This document shows, piece by piece, positions 6,189-32,223 of a stretch of 35,273 nt of DNA. Within the stretch, counting starts at the first letter, position 1. Every line of letters begins with the position of its first letter. The translations under genes were made by a program, and so were the position numbers. The notes beneath the pieces were generated by a model, which searched no databases, was not told the DNA's origin, and was given only the letters and a program-made list of their open reading frames with translations. The stretch is from a virus, in IMG/VR virus record IMGVR_UViG_3300044547_000682, positions 1 through 35,273 of that record; one strand, written 5' to 3'.

Positions 6189-9100
6189 ATGGCAATTAGT
6201 AATCTATTAACGGGTAGGGTAAGGGTAGTAAACCCTAAAAATGTAACATCTGATAGGTATCAATTCTTGGATATATCCCAAGCAGAGCCGAATTTAGGTG
6301 TTCCTAATTTTTCTGCTTCGTTATTAACAAATCCTGCTATTGTAGTTTCGGATGACCAAGGTAATAGAGGATTTGTAAGAAGTTTAGATTTAGATAGAGC
6401 ATCTGGTGCATTTACTGGTTCATTCACAGGTTCATTTACTGGTTCATATTTTGGTGATGGTAGAGATTTATTTAATTTACCAAATGTAACATTTATAGCA
6501 AGTGGTTCGGCAACTGCATCTTTTAAGGAAGGTAATTTGTTTGTTAATACAAACACTATAATTAAAGGTGACCTTTATGTTGATGATACGATTTATGCAG
6601 AAAGTTTAATAGTATCTTATATTTCATCTTCTGTAATATATTCATCTGGTTCTAATATATTTGGCGATGAAACATCCGATATACAACAATTTACTGGTTC
6701 TGTTAGAATACAAAGTGAATTAATTGGTAATAATATTACCGGTTCATCTTTCACTGGTTCGTTTACTGGTTCGTTTTTTGGAGATGGTTCTAATTTATTT
6801 AATTTACCAAAAGCAACTAGATTAGCAAGTGGTAGTGTAACCGCATCGGTTTCTCCACAAGAAGGATTTAAAGTAATTTCAATTGAAAGCGGTTCTAATT
6901 TTACTGGAAGTTTATTTGTAAGTGGAAATGTAGTAATTCCATCTGGTAGTGGGTTTTTTAGTGGTAGTGGTGAGGGATTATTTAATATACCATTATCAGC
7001 ACTTAATATTGATTCATTAGTATCAACTAGAATAGCAAGTGGTAGTGTAACTGCATCAATAGCACCGAATACTGGTTTGGTAGTTAATACAACAATAACT
7101 GCATCAATGTATTCTGGTTCTGGTAGAGGGTTATTCGATATCCCACAATCAGCATTATCAGGAGATGCACCTAGAATCGCTAGTGGTTCTGCAACTGCAT
7201 CAATTTCTCCTGATAGAGGCTTACAAGTAAATACATCTGGACAATTTGAAGGTAATGTATCGGCATCAATGTTTACTGGTAGCGGTAAGGGATTGTTTGA
7301 TATACCTCGGTCAGCATTATCCGAAGATGCAAATTTAATAGCAAGTGGTAGTGTAACCGCATCCGTAAATCCTGATTATGGATTTAGAGTAGAAACTTTA
7401 GCAACTGGATCTGTTATAGGTTCTCAGTTTACTGGTTCTGTTTCTGTTAGTGGTAGTGTATTTGCACAATTTTTCGCAGGAGATGGTTCTCAATTAATAA
7501 ATGTAAATCCTGATAATGTATCAAGAATAGGAAGTGGTTCGGTAACGGCATCTGCTAACCCTGTCAATGGGTTTGTAGTTGAATCATTTGAAAGCGGCTC
7601 ACAATTTACTGGAAGTTTAAAAATTAGTGGTAGCGTATCGATAAGTAGTGGTTCAGCGTTTAGTGGTAGTGGTAAAAATTTATTTGATATTCCTCGTTCA
7701 GCTTTAACACCCGATGCATTACTTTCTACATTTATAGCAAGTGGTAGTGTAACGGCATCAGTTTCACCAAATTTTGGATTTCAGATAAAATCAGTAGCAA
7801 GTGGTTCTACGTTTAGTGGTAGTTTAATTGTAAGTGGTAATATACAAATTCCATCTGGAAGTGGATTCTTTAGTGGTAGTGGTGAGGGGTTATTTAATAT
7901 TCCACTATCAGCATTAGCTGAAAGAGTAACCAGACCTACATTCATAGGAGATGGTTTAATAACTGCATCTGTAAGTTCTGTTTATGGATTTAGAGTTGAA
8001 TCTTTAGGAACTGGTTCTCAATTTACTGGAAGTATAAATGTTAGCGGAAGTGTATTCATTCCAAGTGGTAGTGGTGTATTTAGTGGAAGTGGCGCTGGAT
8101 TATTTGATATCCCTCGTTCTGCAATTTCAAACTTAGATGTTAATTTAATATTCTCTGGTTCAGCAACCGCATCTATTGATCCTGTTAAAGGATTTAATGT
8201 AAATGTACCAAGTAAACTTAGTGGAAGTTTAATAGTATCATCATCTAATTTTACAATACCAACTGCATCATTAAATACTGTATTTGATGTTACAAACGCA
8301 TCATCACTATCTTATGCATTTAGTAATGCTATTGTAGGACCAAATTCAACATTAACTTTAGTTAGAGGTGTAACTTATACATTTAATTTAAATGCATCTG
8401 GGCATCCATTTTATATAAAAACTATTAATTCAACTGGAACTGCTAATGCTTATAACGATGGTGTAACCAATAACGGAACAGCGGTTGGAGTTATAACGTT
8501 TACAGTACCATCTAACGCACCAAATACACTTTATTATAATTGCCAATTCCACTCGGATATGGCGGGAATGATTAATATTGTTGATACATATACATTACCA
8601 GCTGAAATAACATTTATAGGTAAAACAAATATAACTGGAAGTTTAGGTGTTAGTGGTAATGTTACAGCATCAATGTTTAGTGGTTCTGGTAAAGGTTTAT
8701 TTGATATTCCTCGTTCAGCATTATCCGAAGAAGTATTTAGAATTGTTAGTGGTAGTGTAACTGCATCTGTTAGTCCTGATTATGGATTTAGAGTTGAATC
8801 TTTGGAATATGGTAGTACATTCACTGGTTCTATAAACGTAACTGGTTCTTTATTTGTAACTGGTTCTGTTAAGGCTACATTTTTCGCAGGAGATGGTTCT
8901 CAATTAATAAACGTACCTTCTCAAGAAAGTAATAAAATTGTAACGGGTTCGATAACTGCATCTGTAACTCCTGAATTAGGATTTAGAGTAGTTTCTGCAG
9001 ATATTGGTTCTCAATTTACTGGTTCTTTATTTGTAAGTGGTGCTAGGGGTATAGAAATTTCATCTGGTTCATCTTACTCTGGTAGTGGTGCTAGATTATT

Positions 9101-12100
9101 CAATATCCCAAGAACGGCATTAACACCTGATGCATTATTAACAACATTTATAGCATCTGGTTCGGTAACCGCATCTGCAATACCCAATAGAGGATTTATA
9201 ATTCAATCGGCAGCTAGTGGTTCTGAATTTACTGGAAGTTTAAAAATTAGTGGTAGTGTATCTATCAGTTCTGGTTCATCATATTCTGGTAGTGGTAGAT
9301 TCTTATTTGATATACCAGCATCAGCACTTTCTGATTTAGATACATCAAAAATATTTAGTGGTTCGGTAACAGCATCAGCAACCCCTAATTTTGGATTTGT
9401 TGTAACATCTGTTGCTAGTGGTTCTACATTTAGTGGAAGTTTATCGGTTAGTGGTTATACTAGATTTCAGTCTGGTGTATCGGCATCGGTATTTAGTGGT
9501 AGTGGTGCTGGATTAACTGATATTCCATTCTCTGCACTTTCGCAAGAATTATTTAGAATTGCAAGTGGTAGTGTAACTGCATCAGCATTGGCTGATTCTG
9601 GATTTATAGTACAATCGCAAGTTAGTGGGAGTACATTTTATGGTAATGTTAGAATACCTTCTGGAAGTGGGTATTTTAGTGGTAGTGGTGAAGGATTATT
9701 TAATATTCCTGAATCAGCTCTATCATTCGCTCCATATAGAATTGCAAGTGGTAGTGTAACTGCTTCTGTTAGTCCTGTTTATGGATTTAGAGTAGAATCA
9801 TTACTAAGTGGTTCTGAATTTACTGGAAGTGTTGATATTAAAGGAAATGTAAATGTAGCAAGTGGTTCATTCTTTGTAGGAGATGGTAGATTCCTTAATA
9901 ATATTACATTAGCTAATTTAGCAATTGATTCTACAAAAATATTTAGTGGAAGTGCAACGGCATCAATTTCACCAACGGAAGGATTTGAAGTAAATACTCA
10001 TTCTAGATTTGATGGTAGTTTTATTGTATCTTCATCTGGAAGACCTACTCCTGATTATTTAATTGATAGAATTGTTAATGTAACAAATGATGGTTCTAGT
10101 GCATATATAATAGAAAATGGTATTATTAGTGGTTCTAATCCAAATTTAACATTAGTTAGAGGATTGGAATATACAATTAATGTAAACGCATCGGGTCATC
10201 CATTTTGGATTAAATACGTTAATTCTACTGGAACTATATGGGAATATAGTAGTAGTATTACAAATAACGGAACTGATAATGGTATTATTGTATTTACCCC
10301 ACCATCTGGTTCGCCTAATACACTTTATTATAATTGTCAGCTACACTCATCGATGGTGGGAGCTATTAATATAATAGACAGTATAGTAATACCGGCCGAA
10401 ATTAAATTTATTGGTGAAACTAAAGTAGAAGGAAATGTAACCGCATCTATGTTTACTGGTAGTGGTGCTGGGTTATTTGATATACCATTATCAGCATTAT
10501 CTCGTGAAGTATTTAGAATTGCAAGTGGTAGTGTAACTGCATCAGTTTCCCCAAATAAAGGATTAGTTGTTGATTCATTTGTAAGTGGTTCATCATTTAG
10601 TGGAAGTATATTAATTGATTCATCTTCATTCATATATGCAGAAGGTACTTATTTAAGAAAAATACCTAGGTCAGCATTAACGGAAGATGCACTTATATCA
10701 ACGGAAATTAAAAGTGGTAGTGTAACTGCTTCGGTTAGTCCCGATTTTGGATTTAAAGTAACAACTCCGTTTACATCTTCTTTATCATTTGACAACGTAT
10801 TCACTGTAACTAATAATGGAAGTGGTAATTACAATATAAGTAACGGATTAATAAGTGGTTCAAATCCTACAATTACATTACATAGAAATTATGAATATGT
10901 TTTTAATGTAAATGCAAATGGCCACCCTTTTTGGATTAATTCGGCAAGTGCAGTTGGTGTTGTAAATGGATATAATACTTGGGTTACTAATAATGGTGAA
11001 GATGTTGGACAGATAACATTCTTAGTTTCTGGAAGTGCACCAAATACATTATATTATAATTGCCAATTACATTCAGCAATGGCTGGTGTTATAAATGTAG
11101 TAGATGGTAATCCAACCTTTATATATAATACTCAAATTGGTTCTAAATTTACTGGTTCGGTTGATATAAGTGGTAGTTTGTTTATAAACGAAGCTAGTGG
11201 CGGATTGTTCTTAGCATCATCTTCAAAATATTATGGTGAAGGTACATATTTAAGAAATATTCCTCGTTCTGCTTTAACCGAAGATGCACTAACTTCATTT
11301 GAAATTAAATCAGGTTCGGTAACTGCATCTGTTTCTCCTAATTTTGGATTTAGAGTACAATCACAAGAAAGTGGTTCTCAATTTACTGGAAGTGTTGACG
11401 TAAGTGGTTCATTAAGAGCATTTGCATTCATAGGAGATGGTTCACAAATAACAAATGTACAAGCAGCAGCATCACCTTTAATAGCAAGTGGTTCTGCAAC
11501 TGCATCTGTTACAAGTGGAGAGCAATTTATAGTAACAACTGCAAAGACCGGTTCTCAAATAGGTTCTCAATTTACGGGTTCAATTGATGTGAGTGGTAGT
11601 GTAAAGGCATTTTCATTTATTGGAGATGGTTCGCAATTAACTAATGTACAAGCGGCAGCAGCACCATTGATAGCAAGTGGTTCAGCAACAGCATCGGTTC
11701 AAAGTGGAAATACATTTATAGTAACAACCGGAGCAACTGGTTCAGCTATTGGTTCTAGATTTACTGGTTCTGTTGATGTTAGTGGTAGTGTTAGGGCATT
11801 TAATTTTATTGGAGATGGTTCTCAATTAACAAATGTACAAGCTGCAGCATCACCTTTAATAGCAAGTGGTTCGGCAACGGCATCCGTAGCAAGTGGTGAA
11901 CAATTTATTGTAATAACTGCACCAGCATCTGGTTCATATAAATCTCAATTTACATCATCGGTAGCGATTAGTGGTTCAATAACCGCATCTATTTACTATG
12001 GTGATGGTGGTGGATTATTCAATATCCCACCTGAATCAATTGAAGGACTTGAATTGTTTAAAATTAATTCTGGTTCTGGTAGAGCAATTATAGACCCAAC

Positions 12101-15100
12101 TAAATTAGATGTAAACGTACCAATAACCGCAGCACTTTACATAGGTGATGGTGGTGGATTATTCAATATCCCTGCGAACGCATTGCAAGACCTTAAATTG
12201 GATAGAATTATTTCTGGTTCAGTTCAGGCGGTAATATCGCCAAATAAAGGTTTAGAGATTGGAACTAGAACATTTGTGTCTGGTAACTTAAGTGTTACTG
12301 GTGGATTGTTTGTTACTGGTTCTGATATTGTATTAGCATCTGGTTCAAGTTATTTTGGTGATGGTAGTGGATTACGAAATATTAATATCGCTAATTTAGC
12401 ATTTGAAACATCAATATTAAAATCAGGTTCTCAATTTGCAGAAATATCTCCAAATAGAGGATTTAGAGTAAGTACATCATCTTCAATTGATGGTAATTTA
12501 ATTGTAACACATAATATATCAGCGGTAGATATAACTGGTTCTCACGCAGTATTTGCACCAATAGTTAGTGGTGGTTTGGTTGGTACATATAATTTTAAAG
12601 GAGTAGGGCCAACTGCATCGGCTGAATATGATATTTTAAGATATGATGAAAGTAGAGGATATTTTATTCCTCAACCTGAATATTCATTAACTGAAACTGT
12701 TGGATTTAATAATATAAGTAATTTAACAATTGTACATAATTTGGGTATTCGTTATCCATTAGTTCAAATATATGCTACTGGTTCGGAAGACCAAATAATG
12801 GCTGGTACAATTAAATCAATAGATGATGATACAATACAAATTGTATTTAGTGGATTGACAAGTGGACATGCAGTTATTGGTAGTGGTGGTAGTATAATTA
12901 GTGGAACTGTACAGGGAAATAGAGTATTTGGTAGTGTTCTTTCTGCATCATATGCAGATAGAGCATCGGTTGCTGATACAGTTACTGGATTTGATTCGGC
13001 ATCATTATCAGCATTAAATGATATTCAAAACTTAGTAAGAAACTCACAAACATCTTCGATGAGTGTGTTTTTCGCAGTTAGTTCATCTCACGCATTAACG
13101 GCATCATATATATCAAATTTAAGTGGATTGAATTTGACAGATTATGTTAGAAATGATAGAACATCATCAATGTTGGTTGGTACTGCTTCATTAGCAATTA
13201 CAGCATCTTACGCATTGTTTGCACAAAATGCATCAAACGTAGATACATCTAACTTTGTTCAGAATTCACAAACGGCATCAATGACTGTTGGAACGGCCTC
13301 ATTGGCATTTACGGCTAGTGTGGCACTTTTTGCTTTAAATGCAGCAAACGTTGATACGGCATCATTCTTACAAGTAAATAAAGATAGTAACATTAATGCT
13401 AACTTAACTATTAGTGGTAGTTTGGGTGTTAGTGGTAGTGTGTTATTAAATTCATTACCAACTGGTTCATCGGATAATGTTGTTGTTTGGAATGATATAA
13501 CAAAAAAATTAGAAAGAAGAAATATAGCAGCTGCAGTGGGTTCGTCTGGTACGGGTGGTACATCAGGAACTTCTGGTGAAAGTGGTACGGATGGTACATC
13601 AGGAAGTTCTGGCACATCTGGAAGTAGTGGTACTGAAGGAACATCTGGGTCATCTGGTGTTGACGGTTCAAATGGAACATCGGGAACTTCTGGCACTGAA
13701 GGTACATCAGGAACTTCTGGCACGGAAGGTACATCAGGAACTTCTGGCACTGCAGGTACATCAGGAACTTCTGGCACCGAAGGTACTAGCGGAAGTAGTG
13801 GAAGTAGTGGTTCTTCAGGAACCGAAGGTACATCAGGAACTTCTGGCACCGAAGGTACATCAGGTTCATCTGGAATAGATGGAACGTCTGGTTCTTCGGG
13901 AAGTAGTGGCACATCTGGAAGTAGTGGTTCTTCGGGAAGTTCTGGTAGTAGCGGTACTGAAGGTACATCAGGAACTTCTGGCACAAGCGGAAGTAGTGGA
14001 AGTGGGGGTACATCAGGAACTTCTGGTTCAAGTGGCACATCTGGAAGTACAGGTTCATTTGGTACAAGCGGAAGTGGGGGTACATCAGGAACTTCTGGCA
14101 CAAGCGGCACAAGTGGTACTGAAGGTACATCAGGAACTTCTGGGTCTTCAGGAACATCTGGAACATCGGGAACTTCTGGTAGTAGCGGTACTAGTTCTAG
14201 TTCTGGTACTGGTGGTTCTAGTGGCACAAGTGGAAGTAGTGGTTCATCGGGAAGTAGTGGTAGTAGTGGTACGGAGGGCACATCAGGAAGTAGTGGTACA
14301 TCTGCAACTTCTGGTAGTGGTGGTTCTGCTGGTACATCGGGTACATCCGGCTCATCTGGTACAAGCGGCACATCAGGAAGTTCTGGTATAAGTGGTTCGG
14401 CTGGTACATCGGGTTCATCTGGTACAGCAGGTAGTGGTGGTTCTGCTGGTACATCGGGAACTAGCGGTTCGTCTGGCACGTCAGGAACAACTGGTTCGGC
14501 TGGAACATCAGGAACTTCTGGCACATCAGGAACTTCTGGTAAAGATGGTACATCGGGAACTTCTGGAAGTAGCGGTAGTAGCGGTACTGGTGGTTCATCA
14601 GGAACTTCTGGCACATCAGGTACCGAAGGTACATCAGGAACTTCTGGTATAGATGGCACATCGGGAACTTCTGGTACAAGTGGCACAAGTGGTACTGAAG
14701 GTACATCGGGTAGTAGTGGTACTGAAGGCACTAGTGGTAGTAGCGGTACTGAAGGTACATCGGGAACTTCTGGAATAGATGGCACAAGTGGAAGTAGTGG
14801 TTCTAGTGGCACAAGCGGTAGTAGTGGAACTTCTGGCACAAGCGGCAGTAGTGGTACTGAAGGTACATCAGGAACTTCTGGTAAAGATGGCACATCGGGA
14901 ACTTCTGGAAGTAGTGGTACTGAAGGTACAAGCGGTAGTAGCGGTACTGAGGGAACTGCTGGCACATCAGGAACTTCTGGAGTAAATGGCACATCGGGAA
15001 CTTCTGGTATAGATGGCACATCGGGAACTTCTGGTTTAAGTGGAACGGATGGGACAAGCGGCACAAGTGGCAGTAGTGGTACTGAAGGTACATCAGGAAC

Positions 15101-17465
15101 TTCTGGTATAGACGGAAGTAGTGGCACATCAGGAACTTCTGGAAGTAGTGGTACTGAAGGTACATCAGGAACTTCTGGTAGTGGTGGCACATCGGGAACT
15201 TCTGGAACATCTGGATTGGATGGAACATATTTTGGTAGTAGCGGTACTAGTGGTAGTAGCGGAACTTCTGGCACAAGTGGCAGTAGTGGTACGGAGGGTA
15301 CATCAGGAACTTCTGGTATAGATGGAACATATTTTGGTAGTAGCGGTACTAGTGGCAGTAGTGGAACTTCTGGCACATCAGGAACTTCTGGTAGTAGTGG
15401 TAGTAGCGGTACTGAAGGTACTTCGGGAACTTCTGGTAGTAGCGGTAAAGATGGAACTTCATTCGGTTCATCTGGAACATCAGGAACCGAAGGTACAAGC
15501 GGCACTGAAGGCACATCGGGAACTTCTGGTAGTAGTGGTACTTCAGGAACTTCTGGTAAAGACGGAACTTCATTTGGAAGTTCTGGAAGTAGTGGTACAT
15601 CAGGCTCTTCTGGTTCATCTGGCACCGAAGGTACATCGGGAACTTCTGGTAAAGATGGAACTGTTGGTACATCGGGAAGTTCTGGACAAGACGGAACATT
15701 TTTTGGAAGTAGTGGTATAAGTGGTACATCAGGAAGTTCTGGATATGATGGTAGTCATGGTACAAGTGGTACGCAAGGTACATCGGGAACTTCTGGTAGT
15801 AGTGGTTTAGATGGAACTTTCTTTGGTAGTAATGGAACATCGGGAAGTTCTGGAATTAGTGGAACGGATGGACTTAGTGGAACTGACGGTTCTGCTGGAA
15901 GTTCTGGAACATCGGGAATAAATGGTACTTCGGGTAGCAGTGGCGTAAACGGAACTTCTGGTAGTAGTGGTTTAGATGGTACATTCTTTGGGTCATCGGG
16001 AACTTCTGGCACAACAGGTACTTCGGGAACTTCTGGCACAACAGGTACATCAGGAACTTCTGGAGAAAACGGAACTTCGGGTAGTAGTGGTTTAGACGGA
16101 ACGTATTTTGGTTCATCGGGAACTTCTGGATTTGGTACAAGTGGTACTTCGGGAAGTTCTGGAGAAAGTGGTTCATCGGGAACAACTGGTACATCGGGAA
16201 GTTCTGGATTAGATGGTACTTTATTTGGTAGTAGCGGTACTTCTGGTACATCAGGAACTTCTGGAATATCTGGGTCAGCTGGAACATCAGGTACAACTGG
16301 TACATCGGGAAGTTCTGGATTAGATGGTACGTTATTTGGAAGTAGTGGTACATCGGGTACAACAGGTACTTCTGGAATATCTGGGTCAGCTGGAACATCA
16401 GGTACAACTGGTACTTCTGGTAGTAGCGGTTTAGATGGAACTTTCTTTGGAAGTAGTGGAACATCAGGAAGTTCTGGTACATCGGGTATAACTGGAAGTA
16501 ATGGAAGTAGCGGCACATCTGGTACAACAGGTACTTCTGGTAGTAGCGGTTTAGATGGAACATTCTTTGGTAGTAGCGGAACATCGGGTACAACTGGTAC
16601 ATCAGGTATAACTGGCACAGCCGGTTCATCGGGTACAACTGGTACATCAGGAAGTTCTGGATTTGATGGTACATTCTTTGGTAGTAGTGGAACTACTGGA
16701 ACATCAGGAACTTCAGGTATATCTGGGTCAGCTGGAACTTCTGGATTGGGCACAAATGGTACTTCAGGAAGTTCTGGATTGGATGGAACTTTCTTTGGAA
16801 GCAGTGGAACATCAGGTTCATCAGGATTATCAGCATCAAATGGTACATCAGGAACTTCTGGATTGGGTACATCTGGAACATCTGGATTAGATGGTACTTT
16901 ATTTGGTAGTAGTGGTACAAGCGGTGTAAATGGAACTTCTGGGGTTACAAGTACTAATGGTACATCAGGAACTTCTGGTTTTAGTGGCACAAATGGTACA
17001 TCGGGAAGTTCTGGATTTATGTTATTGTCTGGAGCAACTGAAAATGGTGTATTGACTTGGCAAAATAGTACAACAACTGGTATTGTTGAAAGTAATTTAA
17101 CTTTTGATGGTACTACTCTATCGGTAGCAGGTAACGTAGCATCTACAACATTTAGAGAAACTTATTCTGATTTAGGAACTGGTGGAAGTGCAACTTTAGA
17201 TTTATCAACAGCAAACAACTTTAGAAGACAATTTAATGGTACATCAACATTAACATTTACTAACGCACCTGCATCAAACGCATTTGGGTTTACGTTAGTG
17301 ACAGTAAATGCTGGAGCATATACAGTAAACTTTCCTGCTAGTATTGATTGGGCAGGTGGGAGTGTACCACTTCTAACAACATCTGGTGTGGATGTATTAG
17401 TATTTTACACATTTAATGGTGGTACTACATATTTAGGATTTGTAGGAGGTAAGAATTTAAATTAA
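6189..17465 (+). CDS. Giant tail fibre with cupredoxin domains and collagen-like array (3758 aa)
   Basis: Starts at ATG 6189 (MAISNLLTGRV), with GGAAAG about 9 nt upstream. Residues about 70-2100 hold some 25 short units of the type FTGS(L/I)xVSGS, then SGSGxGLFxIPxSALS, then IASGSVTAS, then PxxGFRV; these are probably trimeric beta-structure. Three cupredoxin-like domains are inserted at about residues 694-811, 1292-1410 and 1535-1643. Residues about 2150-2440 are Ala/Ser-rich (SxTASYALFA type) and may be helical. Residues 2451-3609 form a Gly-X-Y array without proline. The last ~150 residues (FDGTTLSVAGNV, then FRRQFNGTSTLTF, then VLVFYTFNGGTTYLGFV) look like a fibre tip. It is long for a fibre but is a single uninterrupted frame. 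A fibre or adhesin role is inferred from the repeat types and neighbours; the family cannot be named precisely. Confidence 0.88.
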   Translation: MAISNLLTGRVRVVNPKNVTSDRYQFLDISQAEPNLGVPNFSASLLTNPAIVVSDDQGNRGFVRSLDLDRASGAFTGSFTGSFTGSYFGDGRDLFNLPNVTFIASGSATASFKEGNLFVNTNTIIKGDLYVDDTIYAESLIVSYISSSVIYSSGSNIFGDETSDIQQFTGSVRIQSELIGNNITGSSFTGSFTGSFFGDGSNLFNLPKATRLASGSVTASVSPQEGFKVISIESGSNFTGSLFVSGNVVIPSGSGFFSGSGEGLFNIPLSALNIDSLVSTRIASGSVTASIAPNTGLVVNTTITASMYSGSGRGLFDIPQSALSGDAPRIASGSATASISPDRGLQVNTSGQFEGNVSASMFTGSGKGLFDIPRSALSEDANLIASGSVTASVNPDYGFRVETLATGSVIGSQFTGSVSVSGSVFAQFFAGDGSQLINVNPDNVSRIGSGSVTASANPVNGFVVESFESGSQFTGSLKISGSVSISSGSAFSGSGKNLFDIPRSALTPDALLSTFIASGSVTASVSPNFGFQIKSVASGSTFSGSLIVSGNIQIPSGSGFFSGSGEGLFNIPLSALAERVTRPTFIGDGLITASVSSVYGFRVESLGTGSQFTGSINVSGSVFIPSGSGVFSGSGAGLFDIPRSAISNLDVNLIFSGSATASIDPVKGFNVNVPSKLSGSLIVSSSNFTIPTASLNTVFDVTNASSLSYAFSNAIVGPNSTLTLVRGVTYTFNLNASGHPFYIKTINSTGTANAYNDGVTNNGTAVGVITFTVPSNAPNTLYYNCQFHSDMAGMINIVDTYTLPAEITFIGKTNITGSLGVSGNVTASMFSGSGKGLFDIPRSALSEEVFRIVSGSVTASVSPDYGFRVESLEYGSTFTGSINVTGSLFVTGSVKATFFAGDGSQLINVPSQESNKIVTGSITASVTPELGFRVVSADIGSQFTGSLFVSGARGIEISSGSSYSGSGARLFNIPRTALTPDALLTTFIASGSVTASAIPNRGFIIQSAASGSEFTGSLKISGSVSISSGSSYSGSGRFLFDIPASALSDLDTSKIFSGSVTASATPNFGFVVTSVASGSTFSGSLSVSGYTRFQSGVSASVFSGSGAGLTDIPFSALSQELFRIASGSVTASALADSGFIVQSQVSGSTFYGNVRIPSGSGYFSGSGEGLFNIPESALSFAPYRIASGSVTASVSPVYGFRVESLLSGSEFTGSVDIKGNVNVASGSFFVGDGRFLNNITLANLAIDSTKIFSGSATASISPTEGFEVNTHSRFDGSFIVSSSGRPTPDYLIDRIVNVTNDGSSAYIIENGIISGSNPNLTLVRGLEYTINVNASGHPFWIKYVNSTGTIWEYSSSITNNGTDNGIIVFTPPSGSPNTLYYNCQLHSSMVGAINIIDSIVIPAEIKFIGETKVEGNVTASMFTGSGAGLFDIPLSALSREVFRIASGSVTASVSPNKGLVVDSFVSGSSFSGSILIDSSSFIYAEGTYLRKIPRSALTEDALISTEIKSGSVTASVSPDFGFKVTTPFTSSLSFDNVFTVTNNGSGNYNISNGLISGSNPTITLHRNYEYVFNVNANGHPFWINSASAVGVVNGYNTWVTNNGEDVGQITFLVSGSAPNTLYYNCQLHSAMAGVINVVDGNPTFIYNTQIGSKFTGSVDISGSLFINEASGGLFLASSSKYYGEGTYLRNIPRSALTEDALTSFEIKSGSVTASVSPNFGFRVQSQESGSQFTGSVDVSGSLRAFAFIGDGSQITNVQAAASPLIASGSATASVTSGEQFIVTTAKTGSQIGSQFTGSIDVSGSVKAFSFIGDGSQLTNVQAAAAPLIASGSATASVQSGNTFIVTTGATGSAIGSRFTGSVDVSGSVRAFNFIGDGSQLTNVQAAASPLIASGSATASVASGEQFIVITAPASGSYKSQFTSSVAISGSITASIYYGDGGGLFNIPPESIEGLELFKINSGSGRAIIDPTKLDVNVPITAALYIGDGGGLFNIPANALQDLKLDRIISGSVQAVISPNKGLEIGTRTFVSGNLSVTGGLFVTGSDIVLASGSSYFGDGSGLRNINIANLAFETSILKSGSQFAEISPNRGFRVSTSSSIDGNLIVTHNISAVDITGSHAVFAPIVSGGLVGTYNFKGVGPTASAEYDILRYDESRGYFIPQPEYSLTETVGFNNISNLTIVHNLGIRYPLVQIYATGSEDQIMAGTIKSIDDDTIQIVFSGLTSGHAVIGSGGSIISGTVQGNRVFGSVLSASYADRASVADTVTGFDSASLSALNDIQNLVRNSQTSSMSVFFAVSSSHALTASYISNLSGLNLTDYVRNDRTSSMLVGTASLAITASYALFAQNASNVDTSNFVQNSQTASMTVGTASLAFTASVALFALNAANVDTASFLQVNKDSNINANLTISGSLGVSGSVLLNSLPTGSSDNVVVWNDITKKLERRNIAAAVGSSGTGGTSGTSGESGTDGTSGSSGTSGSSGTEGTSGSSGVDGSNGTSGTSGTEGTSGTSGTEGTSGTSGTAGTSGTSGTEGTSGSSGSSGSSGTEGTSGTSGTEGTSGSSGIDGTSGSSGSSGTSGSSGSSGSSGSSGTEGTSGTSGTSGSSGSGGTSGTSGSSGTSGSTGSFGTSGSGGTSGTSGTSGTSGTEGTSGTSGSSGTSGTSGTSGSSGTSSSSGTGGSSGTSGSSGSSGSSGSSGTEGTSGSSGTSATSGSGGSAGTSGTSGSSGTSGTSGSSGISGSAGTSGSSGTAGSGGSAGTSGTSGSSGTSGTTGSAGTSGTSGTSGTSGKDGTSGTSGSSGSSGTGGSSGTSGTSGTEGTSGTSGIDGTSGTSGTSGTSGTEGTSGSSGTEGTSGSSGTEGTSGTSGIDGTSGSSGSSGTSGSSGTSGTSGSSGTEGTSGTSGKDGTSGTSGSSGTEGTSGSSGTEGTAGTSGTSGVNGTSGTSGIDGTSGTSGLSGTDGTSGTSGSSGTEGTSGTSGIDGSSGTSGTSGSSGTEGTSGTSGSGGTSGTSGTSGLDGTYFGSSGTSGSSGTSGTSGSSGTEGTSGTSGIDGTYFGSSGTSGSSGTSGTSGTSGSSGSSGTEGTSGTSGSSGKDGTSFGSSGTSGTEGTSGTEGTSGTSGSSGTSGTSGKDGTSFGSSGSSGTSGSSGSSGTEGTSGTSGKDGTVGTSGSSGQDGTFFGSSGISGTSGSSGYDGSHGTSGTQGTSGTSGSSGLDGTFFGSNGTSGSSGISGTDGLSGTDGSAGSSGTSGINGTSGSSGVNGTSGSSGLDGTFFGSSGTSGTTGTSGTSGTTGTSGTSGENGTSGSSGLDGTYFGSSGTSGFGTSGTSGSSGESGSSGTTGTSGSSGLDGTLFGSSGTSGTSGTSGISGSAGTSGTTGTSGSSGLDGTLFGSSGTSGTTGTSGISGSAGTSGTTGTSGSSGLDGTFFGSSGTSGSSGTSGITGSNGSSGTSGTTGTSGSSGLDGTFFGSSGTSGTTGTSGITGTAGSSGTTGTSGSSGFDGTFFGSSGTTGTSGTSGISGSAGTSGLGTNGTSGSSGLDGTFFGSSGTSGSSGLSASNGTSGTSGLGTSGTSGLDGTLFGSSGTSGVNGTSGVTSTNGTSGTSGFSGTNGTSGSSGFMLLSGATENGVLTWQNSTTTGIVESNLTFDGTTLSVAGNVASTTFRETYSDLGTGGSATLDLSTANNFRRQFNGTSTLTFTNAPASNAFGFTLVTVNAGAYTVNFPASIDWAGGSVPLLTTSGVDVLVFYTFNGGTTYLGFVGGKNLN
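8269..8622 (+). other. Cupredoxin-like domain 1 in the fibre
   Basis: Residues about 694-811 of the fibre carry a type 1 copper ligand pattern: His739 in GHPF, Cys785 in YYNC, His788 and Met791 (C-x2-H-x2-M, the amicyanin-like loop spacing). His and Cys are 46 residues apart, close to the 47 of plastocyanin (His37, Cys84). Beta-strand-like sequence (LTLVRGVTYTFNLNASG, then VITFTVP) sits where cupredoxin strands would be. Copper binding is inferred from the ligands alone. Confidence 0.75.
10063..10418 (+). other. Cupredoxin-like domain 2 in the fibre
   Basis: This is the second copy of the domain, with His1337 (GHPFWI), Cys1383 (YYNC), His1386 and Met1389. The His-to-Cys distance of 46 and the C-x2-H-x2-M loop (CQLHSSM) are the same as in copy 1. 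A PAEIKFIG stretch follows directly, parallel to PAEITFIG after copy 1, so domain and linker were probably duplicated together. Confidence 0.75.
10792..11120 (+). other. Cupredoxin-like domain 3 in the fibre
   Basis: This is the third copy, with His1579 (GHPFWI), Cys1625 (YYNC), His1628 and Met1631, and again 46 residues between His and Cys (loop CQLHSAM). It starts only about 125 residues after the end of copy 2 and lacks the PAEI linker after it. Every ligand position is intact even though the rest of the domain has diverged (for example LHRNYEYVFNVNANG against LVRGVTYTFNLNASG). Confidence 0.75.
13539..17015 (+). repeat. Collagen-like Gly-X-Y array, ~1159 residues, proline-free
   Basis: The array is an almost unbroken run of Gly triplets, mostly GTS and GSS with GTE, GID, GKD and GLD mixed in. 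I see no proline, unlike animal collagen. From 15217 to 16910 the run is punctuated 15 times by DGT(Y/F/S/L)FGS, which adds one extra residue and so breaks the Gly-X-Y register about every 37-40 residues. At DNA level the run is built from short recurring blocks, such as more than ten exact copies of GGTACATCAGGAACTTCTGG. A rigid stalk role is inferred from known phage collagen-like fibres. Confidence 0.9.
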
Positions 17466-18388: not shown

Positions 18389-18832
18389 ATGTATTTAAGA
18401 ATTATAGAAGATACAATTCATTATCCTTATAGTATTCCTCAATTAAGAAAATCATATCCAAACACAAGCTTACCTGCTCAATTAACGGATGAATCTTTAA
18501 TAGAGTGGGATATGTATGTAGTTACCCCAACTCCAATGCCAAATGATTATACAAAAAATATTATCGAAGGAACACCTGTTTTAATTGATGGAAATTATTG
18601 CAGAAATTGGATACAAACAAATGCATCGGAAGAAGAAATTTCTTATAGAATTCAAACAAAGTGGGAGGAAATTAGAATTCAAAGAAACGAATTATTAACA
18701 GAATGCGATTGGACACAATTATTGGATATCCCAACCGAAACAAAAGAATTGTGGCAAACTTACAGACAATCGTTAAGAGATATTACATCTCAATCAAACC
18801 CATATAACATAACTTGGCCGGTTAAACCTTAA
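18389..18832 (+). CDS. Tail fibre assembly chaperone-like protein (Phage_tail_APC type)
   Basis: The product is 147 aa. The C-terminal half, residues about 96-147, has the hallmark series RN(E)LLxxCDWTQLxD, then LWxxYRQxLRDI, then NITWPVKP, as in phage tail assembly chaperone / tail fibre assembly proteins. The N-terminal half (YPYSIPQLRKSYPNTSLPAQL) is the usual less conserved part. Such proteins help fibres fold or trimerise and are usually encoded next to the fibre they serve. Here the gene starts one base after the stop of the BspA-type protein, so the two are surely co-translated and the likely client is that protein or the giant fibre upstream. I recognise the family from the C-terminal motif and did not confirm it by search. 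Confidence 0.85.
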   Translation: MYLRIIEDTIHYPYSIPQLRKSYPNTSLPAQLTDESLIEWDMYVVTPTPMPNDYTKNIIEGTPVLIDGNYCRNWIQTNASEEEISYRIQTKWEEIRIQRNELLTECDWTQLLDIPTETKELWQTYRQSLRDITSQSNPYNITWPVKP

Positions 18833-29360: not shown

Positions 29361-31682
29361 ATGGCAGAAAGAATTGTATCACCTGGCGTATTCACAAGAG
29401 AAAACGATTTATCATTCTTACCTCAAGGGGTTGGTGAAATCGGCGCCGCATTCATAGGACCTCTAAAAGAAGGACCTTCATTCATACCTACAATAGTAAG
29501 AACACAATCTGATTTCGAAGAAGTATTCGGAAAGGTTGATGGTACTTATTATACTGAGTATGCTGTACAAAACTATTTAAGAGAAGCTGGTCAAGCAACT
29601 GTAATAAGAGTTGGCGGTACTGGTGGATACACACAAGCAGCACCTTTAGCAATTTTGGCTAGTGGTAGTTTGTTTGGACAAAAAATAGTAGGTGTATTAC
29701 ATAGTACATTAAATGGTCTTAGTTACCAAGCAATTCCATCAACTGCAAGTATTGTTGATACAATCGGTAGTGGTTCATTTACTATTAAAGGTAATGAATA
29801 CAATGGAACAACTGGTATTGCAGCATCAATATTACCATCCGCTACAAATGATTTAGCAGATGTATTTGGTGAATCACCATTTGGAGCTAAAAATGCATAC
29901 GCTTACAAATATTTTGAAAAATTAGCATCTACATTTACACATGGTGGAGTTTCTGGACTTATATTACCAGCACAAAACTATACACAAGACGCAACAGCTG
30001 CAGAAACTCCAATTATTAAATCTCAATTAATTAGTGGTGATAGATATAGCTTATTTAAGTTTGTAACTTTAGGTGATGGTACAAATTATAATCATAAATT
30101 TAAAGTAGCTATTTCAAATGTTAAAGCAGCTGGTGAAGATGGAGCAACTGATTATTCTACATTTACTGTAACTGTTAGAAGATTTGATGATACTGATAAG
30201 AGAAAAGTTGTATTTGAAACATTTGCAAACGTAAACTTAGACGCAGCTTCTTCTAACTATATTGGTAGAAGAATTGGTGATAGATATTATACAATAGATA
30301 ATGATGGTAAAATTACCGAAAATGGTGATTACTCAAATCGTTCTAAATATATAAGAGTAGTTGTAAACGATGTAAACGAAGGAATTGCAGGACCTGGTTC
30401 TTATCCAATTTCAGCAGCACCATTCGGACATGCAGCTTACAATAACCCAATCAAAACAAATAATACAACTCAAGATTCATATGTACCTGCAGTAACGTAT
30501 CAAACTGGTTCAGCTAATAATACAGCTGGTTCACCAATATACTATGGTGGTTTCGATTTTGAAACAACTGGTGTGGCTATGGATAATCGTATGTATTTAG
30601 CACCTATTCCTGTTGGAGTTACTGTTGGAGCAAACGTTGATTTCGCATTTGATTCTCAATTAACTTATCAAATGACTGGTTCTAACTCTGTAGATATGAG
30701 TAAGAGACAATTTATGTTAGGTTTCCAATATGGATTTGATGGTATGAACCCAACAACTAAGATTAACTTAGGAGCTGATATGGTACAAGCAAATTCGCAA
30801 GGTATGGATTTATCAACTTCAGTATCAAATGGTACTTTAGGATATTTCAAAGCAATTAACGCTATCTCTAACGCAGATGAATATGATATCAATATGGTTA
30901 TCACACCGGGTATCATCAGAAGCTTACACCCTTCAGTTACTACAAAAGTAATTGATATGGTTGAAGATAGACAAGATTGTTTCTATATCGCTGACTTTAC
31001 CGAAATTGGAGCATCTATTTCTGAAGTAACAGCGCAAGCAAATTCAGTAGATTCTAACTATGTTGGAACTTACTATCCTTGGGTTAAAACAATTGACACA
31101 AACACTAATAAGATATTATCAGTACCTCCTTCAGTATTACTGCCGGCTGTATTCGCTAGTAACGATAGATTAGCAGCAGAATGGTTTGCACCTGCTGGTT
31201 TAAATAGAGGTGGTATCACTGGAGCAATAAGTGTATTAAATAGATTAACACACGCTGAAAGAGATACTCTTTATGAAAACAAAGTAAACCCAATCGCTTC
31301 TTTCCCTGGACAAGGTATCGTAGCATTCGGACAAAAAACATTACAAGATAAGGCTTCAGCATTAGATAGAATCAATGTAAGAAGATTATTAATTGTATTG
31401 AAGAAGTTTATCGCATCTACATCTCGTTATTTAGTATTCGAACAAAATACTGCAACAACTAGACAAAGATTCTTAAACACTGTTAATCCATACTTAGAGG
31501 CTGTACAGCAAAGACAAGGTTTGTACGCATTCAAAGTTGTAATGGATGAAAGTAACAATACACCGGATGTGATTGATAGAAACATATTGGCTGGACAAAT
31601 TTTCTTACAACCTGCTAAGACGGCGGAATTTATCGTAATAGATTTCAACATCTTACCAACTGGAGCAAGTTTCTCAGCATAA
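29361..31682 (+). CDS. Contractile tail sheath protein (T4 gp18-like)
   Basis: The product is 773 aa, longer than T4 gp18 (659 aa). The N-terminus (MAERIVSPGVFTREND, then GEIGAAFIGPLKEGPSFIP and TQSDFEEVFG) and the C-terminal half are typical of the sheath family: LNRGGITGAISVLNRLTHAERDTLYENKVNPIA, then ALDRINVRRLLIVLKKFI, then FEQNTATTRQRFLNTVNPYLE, and a final ILAGQIFLQPAKTAEFIVIDF. Residues ~120-480 are less conserved and probably form the outer domain. Sheath subunits stack around the tube and contract to drive it through the host envelope. The start follows GAAGAAATAAA, a weak purine-rich leader. The next gene is the matching tail tube. Confidence 0.97.
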   Translation: MAERIVSPGVFTRENDLSFLPQGVGEIGAAFIGPLKEGPSFIPTIVRTQSDFEEVFGKVDGTYYTEYAVQNYLREAGQATVIRVGGTGGYTQAAPLAILASGSLFGQKIVGVLHSTLNGLSYQAIPSTASIVDTIGSGSFTIKGNEYNGTTGIAASILPSATNDLADVFGESPFGAKNAYAYKYFEKLASTFTHGGVSGLILPAQNYTQDATAAETPIIKSQLISGDRYSLFKFVTLGDGTNYNHKFKVAISNVKAAGEDGATDYSTFTVTVRRFDDTDKRKVVFETFANVNLDAASSNYIGRRIGDRYYTIDNDGKITENGDYSNRSKYIRVVVNDVNEGIAGPGSYPISAAPFGHAAYNNPIKTNNTTQDSYVPAVTYQTGSANNTAGSPIYYGGFDFETTGVAMDNRMYLAPIPVGVTVGANVDFAFDSQLTYQMTGSNSVDMSKRQFMLGFQYGFDGMNPTTKINLGADMVQANSQGMDLSTSVSNGTLGYFKAINAISNADEYDINMVITPGIIRSLHPSVTTKVIDMVEDRQDCFYIADFTEIGASISEVTAQANSVDSNYVGTYYPWVKTIDTNTNKILSVPPSVLLPAVFASNDRLAAEWFAPAGLNRGGITGAISVLNRLTHAERDTLYENKVNPIASFPGQGIVAFGQKTLQDKASALDRINVRRLLIVLKKFIASTSRYLVFEQNTATTRQRFLNTVNPYLEAVQQRQGLYAFKVVMDESNNTPDVIDRNILAGQIFLQPAKTAEFIVIDFNILPTGASFSA

Positions 31683-31702
31683 TATGAAAATAAACAAAAT
31701 TA

Positions 31703-31711
31703 ATATTTATT
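31703..31711 (+). promoter_or_regulatory. Weak candidate promoter before the tail tube gene
   Basis: ATATTTATT (31703-31711) differs at the last base from the ATATTTATA motif seen ahead of other units and ends 23 bases before the tube ATG. No terminator separates sheath and tube, so this could be a secondary promoter for the very abundant tube protein or simply AT-rich spacer. Confidence 0.22.
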
Positions 31712-31734
31712 AATACAAATAAAAGGAATACAAA

Positions 31735-32223
31735 ATGGCAGAAATATTAGAATTCGATAAAATGTTCTATACGAACTTCGAACCAAAGATGAAGAATCGC
31801 TATGTAATGGAAATTGATGGCATTCAGTCTTACTTAGTTAAAGCAGCAGCTAGACCTACAATTCAATTTGAGGTAATAACTTTAGACCATATCAACGTAA
31901 AAAGAAAGTTGAAAGGTAAAGGTGAATGGCAAGATATAACAATCACATTGTTTGACCCAATTGTACCTTCTGGGGCACAATCGGTAATGGAGTGGATTCG
32001 TTTATCACATGAATCTATCACTGGTAGAGATGGATATGCAGATTTCTATAAAAAAGATTTAGATTTCTATATGTTAGGACCAGTTGGTGATAAGATTGAG
32101 CAGTGGAAAATTAAAGGAGCATTCATCTCCCAAGCAAACTTTGGAGATGTATCATTCGATTCTAACGAACCTGCAACAATTGAATTAACATTATCTTACG
32201 ATTACGCAATTCTTGAATTCTAA
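31735..32223 (+). CDS. Tail tube protein (T4 gp19-like)
   Basis: The product is 162 aa, the same size as T4 gp19 (163 aa). Family features: MEIDGIQSYLVKAAARPTI (short strand followed by the A(A)RP motif), then DHINVKRKLKGKGEWQDITITLFDP, then MEWIRLSHESITGRDGYADFYKKD, and the C-terminal ATIELTLSYDYAILEF. Hexamers of this protein stack into the inner tube that the sheath surrounds. AAAAGGA seven bases before the ATG is one of the best Shine-Dalgarno matches in the window, consistent with high expression. A strong hairpin terminator follows the stop. Confidence 0.96.
   Translation: MAEILEFDKMFYTNFEPKMKNRYVMEIDGIQSYLVKAAARPTIQFEVITLDHINVKRKLKGKGEWQDITITLFDPIVPSGAQSVMEWIRLSHESITGRDGYADFYKKDLDFYMLGPVGDKIEQWKIKGAFISQANFGDVSFDSNEPATIELTLSYDYAILEF

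Follow-up and report, generated by a model that had tools for sequence, protein, structure and literature searches.

The 35,273-base virus record IMGVR_UViG_3300044547_000682 (the window, i.e., the whole stretch of DNA analysed) encodes a tail fibre open reading frame (ORF) of 3758 residues that carries three small, related domains. Each is read here as a small cupredoxin with a complete mononuclear type 1-like site, placed as a module between the fibre shaft repeats, that would be copper-loaded, exposed and engaged in binding. The probability given to this whole statement is about 0.6; the identity of the domains is held with more confidence and their role with less. The fold of domain 1, the ligand positions, the homology to type 1 copper proteins, the selection on the site and the spread of the domain as a tail module are supported by computation, while the binding of a metal, its identity and its use are what we infer. 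The ORF and its domains are:

6189..17465, + strand: tail fibre ORF, 3758 aa, with shaft-like repeats, three predicted cupredoxin domains, a collagen-like region and a fibre-like C-terminus
8280..8585, + strand: predicted cupredoxin domain 1, residues 698-799 (family profile, phrog_677, structure model); putative ligands H739 (8403-8405), C785 (8541-8543), H788 (8550-8552) and M791 (8559-8561)
10074..10379, + strand: predicted cupredoxin domain 2, residues 1296-1397 (family profile, phrog_677); putative ligands H1337 (10197-10199), C1383 (10335-10337), H1386 (10344-10346) and M1389 (10353-10355)
10797..11105, + strand: predicted cupredoxin domain 3, residues 1537-1639 (family profile, phrog_677); putative ligands H1579 (10923-10925), C1625 (11061-11063), H1628 (11070-11072) and M1631 (11079-11081)

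The pattern H-x45-C-x2-H-x2-M is present in all three domains, with GHPF starting at residues 738, 1336 and 1578, C-x2-H-x2-M at 785, 1383 and 1625, and a His-to-Cys distance of 46 in each (739-785, 1337-1383, 1579-1625); the residues of the ORF thereby bear out what the original prediction had said of these motifs. Judged from sequence, His, Cys, His and Met appear in order in conserved loops of the window domains. Identity to copy 1 is 59% for copy 2 and 56% for copy 3, and the ligand codons of copies 1, 2 and 3 differ synonymously: CAT, CAT and CAC for the first His, TGC, TGT and TGC for Cys, and CAC, CAC and CAT for the second His. The whole fibre ORF holds 3 Cys, 14 His and 14 Met, and every one of the three Cys is the ligand Cys of one domain. 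The C-terminal part of phrog_677 matches the three domains at 9.6e-25, 5.4e-20 and 1.4e-20, E-values that place the matches beyond chance, and a fourth copy was not found in the window (fourth-best match E 36). Profile domain boundaries were read in a frame starting one codon earlier than the ORF at 6189..17465. Domains 1 and 2 have similar flanks (SGSLIVSSS and DGSFIVSSS before, PAEITFIG and PAEIKFIG after), and those of domain 3 differ.

The cupredoxin fold that had been proposed agrees with the structural comparisons made for domain 1. An AlphaFold2 model of this domain (49 sequences; mean pLDDT 92.7) is a cupredoxin sandwich, and domain 1 is accordingly predicted to have the cupredoxin beta-sandwich fold. 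In the model the first His (model residue 44) follows strand 34-40, and the stretch between strands 85-89 and 97-103 contains Cys 90, His 93 and Met 96. The ligands had been expected to cluster, and the modelled order of strands, which places C-x2-H-x2-M in the last loop and the first His in another, would fit this. Foldseek against PDB placed AcoP (2.3e-5) and rusticyanin (3.9e-5) at the top (probability 1.00), with copper nitrite reductase next and TM-scores of about 0.5-0.6, and in VIA-align nitrite reductase 2dv6 had Z 11.4 (101 residues aligned at rmsd 3.3) and rusticyanin 2cal Z 10.6 (92 residues at rmsd 2.1; rusticyanin entries Z 9.6-10.6). A resemblance in fold is also seen in small beta-sandwich proteins of giant viruses in BFVD (A0A481Z6J5, A0A481Z7Q7 and A0A481YVH3; 5.5e-8 to 3.5e-7), which come from Pithovirus LCPAC302, LCPAC304 and Marseillevirus LCMAC201.

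Homology to copper proteins was sought with two profiles, A1 of 49 close domains and A3 of 27 diverse domains, the latter with hand-chosen rows, invariant ligands and none of the 12 site-less domains described below. Against PDB chains A3 matched copper nitrite reductase (9.8e-5), an amicyanin variant (1.1e-4), wild-type amicyanin 1aac (0.0012) and plastocyanin (0.0066); A1 had weak matches only (best 0.055), so that the broader A3 was needed, and a single-sequence phmmer search with domain 1 against PDB had no match at E up to 1. When A3 and the profile of nine cyanophage PetE proteins are aligned locally, all four ligands fall on PetE ligands, and this together with the A3-PDB alignments supports the type 1 ligand set and the short, amicyanin-length loop that had been suggested. 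A forced global hhalign run of the domain family against PetE produced a nonsense alignment and the local run was used instead. The fibre domain has the cupredoxin fold and His, Cys-x2-His and Met in common with amicyanin and plastocyanin, but its first His lies in GHPF rather than PHN and, unlike them, it is a module in a fibre. The loop C-x2-H-x2-M of the window domains is presumably of the amicyanin type. The comparison of spacing fared less well: a plastocyanin distance of 47 had been named as close to the 46 of the fibre domain, but the nine phage plastocyanins have 37-38. Family libraries were nearly silent. Pfam PF00127 Copper-bind gave no match up to E 1 in any of the three domains of the window, and a P-SSM2 fibre copy came just under the cut-off (1.8e-4; 19.8 vs 21.2 bits). 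NCBIfam gave no meaningful match to the window domains, amicyanin TIGR02657 included, to which a protein labelled PetE in cyanophage S-SCSM2R (see below) scores 21.2 of 110.2 bits. At5g54830-like on domain 1 (18.8 vs 27 bits) and DUF7585 on domain 3 (12.1 vs 27.4) are below the Pfam cut-offs, and domain 2 had no Pfam match.

Over all loci 426 complete domains were counted, 268 of them distinct, after 8 partial ones of 434 had been dropped. In the viral set, i.e., the window, IMG/VR and phage records, with the second viral scan counted among the matches listed, His, Cys, His and Met are all present in 175 of 187 distinct domains; in genome contigs this holds for 80 of 81, the remaining one having Gln for Met, and in the phage records fetched the site is intact in 22 of 22. 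The selection on the site that had been postulated is in line with these figures. The counts do favour intact sites, because ligand residues occur in two of the six seed patterns used in the first viral scan, in two of the three of the second and in one of the two genome patterns (the one that contains the first His). The fairest viral figure, 62 of 72 intact (best 80 loci), comes from a seed without ligand positions, in a scan that demands the motif Y..[VI]TNNG and whose loci overlap those of the other scans. The spacing of 46 is the commonest, in 200 of the 255 distinct intact domains. The ligands are not lost freely among homologues: all 12 viral losses (of 187) lack Cys and the second His jointly, never one alone, with the first His also gone in 8 and Met in 3. 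Seven of the lost copies share a protein with an intact copy; for the other five the stretch fetched shows no intact copy. Cys and His vanish together, and in seven of the 12 cases a further copy is still there, which makes it most likely that the site does something. The sequences indicate a type 1-like metal site that is kept under selection as a unit and carried as a module in tail proteins of the virion.

Phage Ig-like decoration domains are beta-sandwich modules spread over many structural proteins, and they are not known to have a metal site, unlike the fibre cupredoxin. The fibre domain might nevertheless be a similarly inert decoration, a generic beta-sandwich with residues kept by recent descent or structure and with no metal, as the 12 site-less viral copies would allow and as might be read from 133 viral representatives (<80% identity), in which the ligand columns rank 4, 12, 17 and 20 of 96, below several structural residues. 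This is quite unlikely given the joint loss of Cys and the second His in 12 of 12 cases and the many synonymous codon changes under which the residues are retained (on the tree at least 42 switches for the first His, 63 for Cys and 58 for the second His). Ligands also make up 224 of the 483 Cys in 170 distinct viral frames of at least 300 aa, 97 of which have no other Cys. In 67 genome-contig representatives the ligand columns rank 3 to 6 of 97. Cys/His sites are able to bind zinc, and another metal of this kind might sit in the site and serve only to lock the loop. We consider this very improbable: only 4 of the 268 distinct domains lack the axial Met, a residue of type 1 copper sites, and the solved relatives of known function that top the A3-PDB list are all copper proteins.

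Several results weigh against a copper-loaded, exposed fibre module. In the ligand-free sample the site is lost in 10 of 72 domains (best 80 loci), which is not negligible, and the fold profile persists in 12 distinct viral domains that have lost the site, so that metal is not needed for folding. A FastTree tree without ligand columns has ten changes and one with all columns six, and with only three independent loss pairs on supported branches (p 0.25) the paired loss, strong by count, is not yet significant by tree. Against cupredoxins Foldseek reaches only modest TM-scores (0.4-0.6). HMMER alignments to amicyanin match the ligand loop but set the first His two residues off; the A3-PetE alignment has an E of 0.00063 for one comparison and a probability of only 28%, and the local alignment of A1 with PetE reached the Cys loop only. 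Rusticyanin was rejected as a ligand-by-ligand template, since MAFFT aligned Cys and Met and neither His, and its pairwise score of 47 is below the best of 300 shuffles, 49. Lastly, a longer model with shaft flanks has a mean pLDDT of 65.1 and is poor outside the domain, and because it is confident only in the domain itself, we infer exposure rather than read it from the model.

On the favoured reading of a copper-binding fibre module, the host would make the apo-domain in its cytoplasm, and metal, most likely copper, would be taken up at lysis or outside the cell. The bound metal would shield the lone thiol and stiffen the loop end of the sandwich, and the exposed face set by the metal would be a binding or docking surface of the fibre, towards the host surface or another tail part. 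Several domain copies would give avidity, and electron transfer need not occur.

The domain is widespread among phages. Domain 1 matches 341 of 50,697 phage records, 334 of the 341 being assigned to cyanobacterial phages from the word that opens the name; a second search matched 336 records, and 22, picked for variety, were fetched for closer reading. Carriers include cyanophage gp9 connectors, tail fibres and the Autographiviridae phages P-SCSP2 and P-GSP1, and proximal tail fibre proteins as well as gp9 connectors are among the structure matches to the domain in BFVD. Four matches fall in P-SSM2, two of them in a frame of 1098 aa and one each in frames of 566 and 1175 aa; P-SSM7 has T4_gp9_10_N (8.5e-12) and the cupredoxin domain in one protein; and three of seven further carrier frames scanned bear Collagen, Mtd_N or Peptidase_S74. 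The gp9 baseplate wedge tail fibre connector of cyanophages (phrog_677) has the same cupredoxin with the same ligands as its C-terminal domain, in one copy, whereas the window fibre has three internal copies and no gp9 N-terminal domain was found in it. The domain is not a new kind of protein, as it is already inside PHROG families under structural names.

The notion that the fibre domain is the phage's own plastocyanin gene was rejected, as 9 of 11 cyanophage records have a separate PF00127 gene; these genes sit in frames of 108-134 aa, and the fibre-family copies (six records) in frames of 408-1175 aa. The separate plastocyanin also bears on the idea of a redox module, in which the type 1 site would swap electrons with a host or phage partner, e.g., as a trigger at the cell surface. 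The type 1 ligand set and the amicyanin-type loop are those of electron-transfer proteins, but neither a partner nor a second redox centre was seen in the analysis and the modules are repeated within a fibre, which makes this the least probable of the readings considered. In S-SCSM2R (PQ898602.1) the gene labelled PetE (L236:2222-2728) has a fibre-like N-terminus that resembles that of genome-contig carrier L159, a cupredoxin at the end and, by eye, no signal peptide, and looks like a misannotated plastocyanin gene. Because of this label on a fibre-like protein, annotators are warned that tail proteins may be among the viral genes reported as plastocyanin. In three cyanophages (L235, S-SCSM2R and L237) the domain is in or beside proteins annotated peptidase S8 or subtilisin-like.

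Metal sites in phage tails are under discussion for iron. The closest case among the papers listed is that of the iron-binding HxH motifs in tail fibres such as T4 gp37 and that of Alteromonas phage R22Y, and a Ferrojan or Trojan horse idea has been put forward for iron in tails (PMC11705849). These fibres too have a metal site, but HxH is described there as octahedral iron, with no cupredoxin and no Cys. None of the titles and abstracts listed for open-licence PMC, a search that did not take in InterPro or subscription papers, tells of a virion with a cupredoxin or copper domain. The iron idea is a model for a copper lure or scavenger, in which copper on the fibre is recognised by copper-acquisition or other surface proteins of the host, or the virion itself serves as a ligand for copper in the water. 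The tail fibre iron precedent and the dominance of cyanobacterial phages among the matches speak for it. It is unlikely all the same, since the modules sit in the shaft (window) or often in the gp9 connector (cyanophages) rather than in a known receptor-binding tip, no receptor is known, and bacterial proteins hold the same site without a virus role.

Such bacterial proteins were met in a pattern scan of genome contigs, in which the domain occurs at 77 loci. In the secreted bacterial proteins that were aligned, the domain reaches 65% identity to domain 1 and has the same site; one of them, L093, is an SCO0930-type lipoprotein with the domain. The bacterial carriers are made by cells, in contrast to the viral fibre domain, and many of the frames open with an apparent signal peptide or lipoprotein signal, as judged by eye. 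None of four carrier proteins (L085, L092, L093, L123) has a Pfam match over the cut-off across the domain. The 81 genome-contig domains are not all bacterial, as some contigs (e.g., L149, L151, L159) look like phage in metagenome-assembled genomes. The genome-contig carriers (L085-L160) belong to Flavobacteriaceae, the OCS116/PS1 clade, myxobacteria and others, and the domain is often C-terminal.

Since the domain sits with intact ligands in many aquatic phage tail proteins, these virus particles may carry copper. If the copper-binding module is real, a type 1-like copper site in the tail proteins of cyanophages and other aquatic phages ties virus particles to copper chemistry. A much wider claim, that many aquatic tailed phages including the T4-like cyanophages are copper particles, with sites loaded outside the cell and copper having a job in infection, is possible though doubtful; the copper might then set a docking face, act as a redox trigger or lure the copper uptake of the host. 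A type 1-like site offers a simple colour test on the purified domain, and the twelve natural site-less copies are ready-made controls.

Other features of the fibre gene and the window are:

13539..16898, + strand: collagen-like GxxGxx region of the fibre ORF (repeats and Pfam Collagen)
18389..18832, + strand: tail assembly chaperone near the fibre gene (Pfam Phage_tail_APC 8.9e-18; phrog_4912 tail fiber assembly 2.8e-18)
29361..32223, + strand: tail sheath and tail tube genes of a contractile tail (phrog_23 2.6e-72; phrog_4542 2.2e-29)

The ORF at 6189..17465 has the fibre repeats, the collagen-like part and the tail gene context of a tail fibre. It is rich in Ser, Gly and Thr, with the shaft motifs ASGSVTAS, GFxV and GSGxGLFDIP, and its C-terminus matches virion structural and tail fibre families of PHROG (best 1e-13). 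T4_gp9_10_N was not found at the fibre N-terminus, 6189-8261 being without a Pfam or PHROG match. A neighbouring tail fibre ORF matches phrog_5342 (1.8e-121). The sheath has its nearest relative in Microcystis phage Mel-JY01 (47.4% over 99%), followed at 43.9% by an uncultured phage and at 41.0% by Flavobacterium phages. Pfam Collagen matches 13479-16898 of the fibre ORF at 1.1e-124, and 13539-16898 is more than 1000 residues of collagen-like GTSGTSG repeat in a single phage protein. Long antisense ORFs at 13259-15625 and 15755-16990 overlie this region and are probably a product of repeat composition. Between the fibre and chaperone genes the ORF at 17482-18387 matches phrog_9915 (2.2e-23), with LRR_5 and PKD weak and under the cut-offs.

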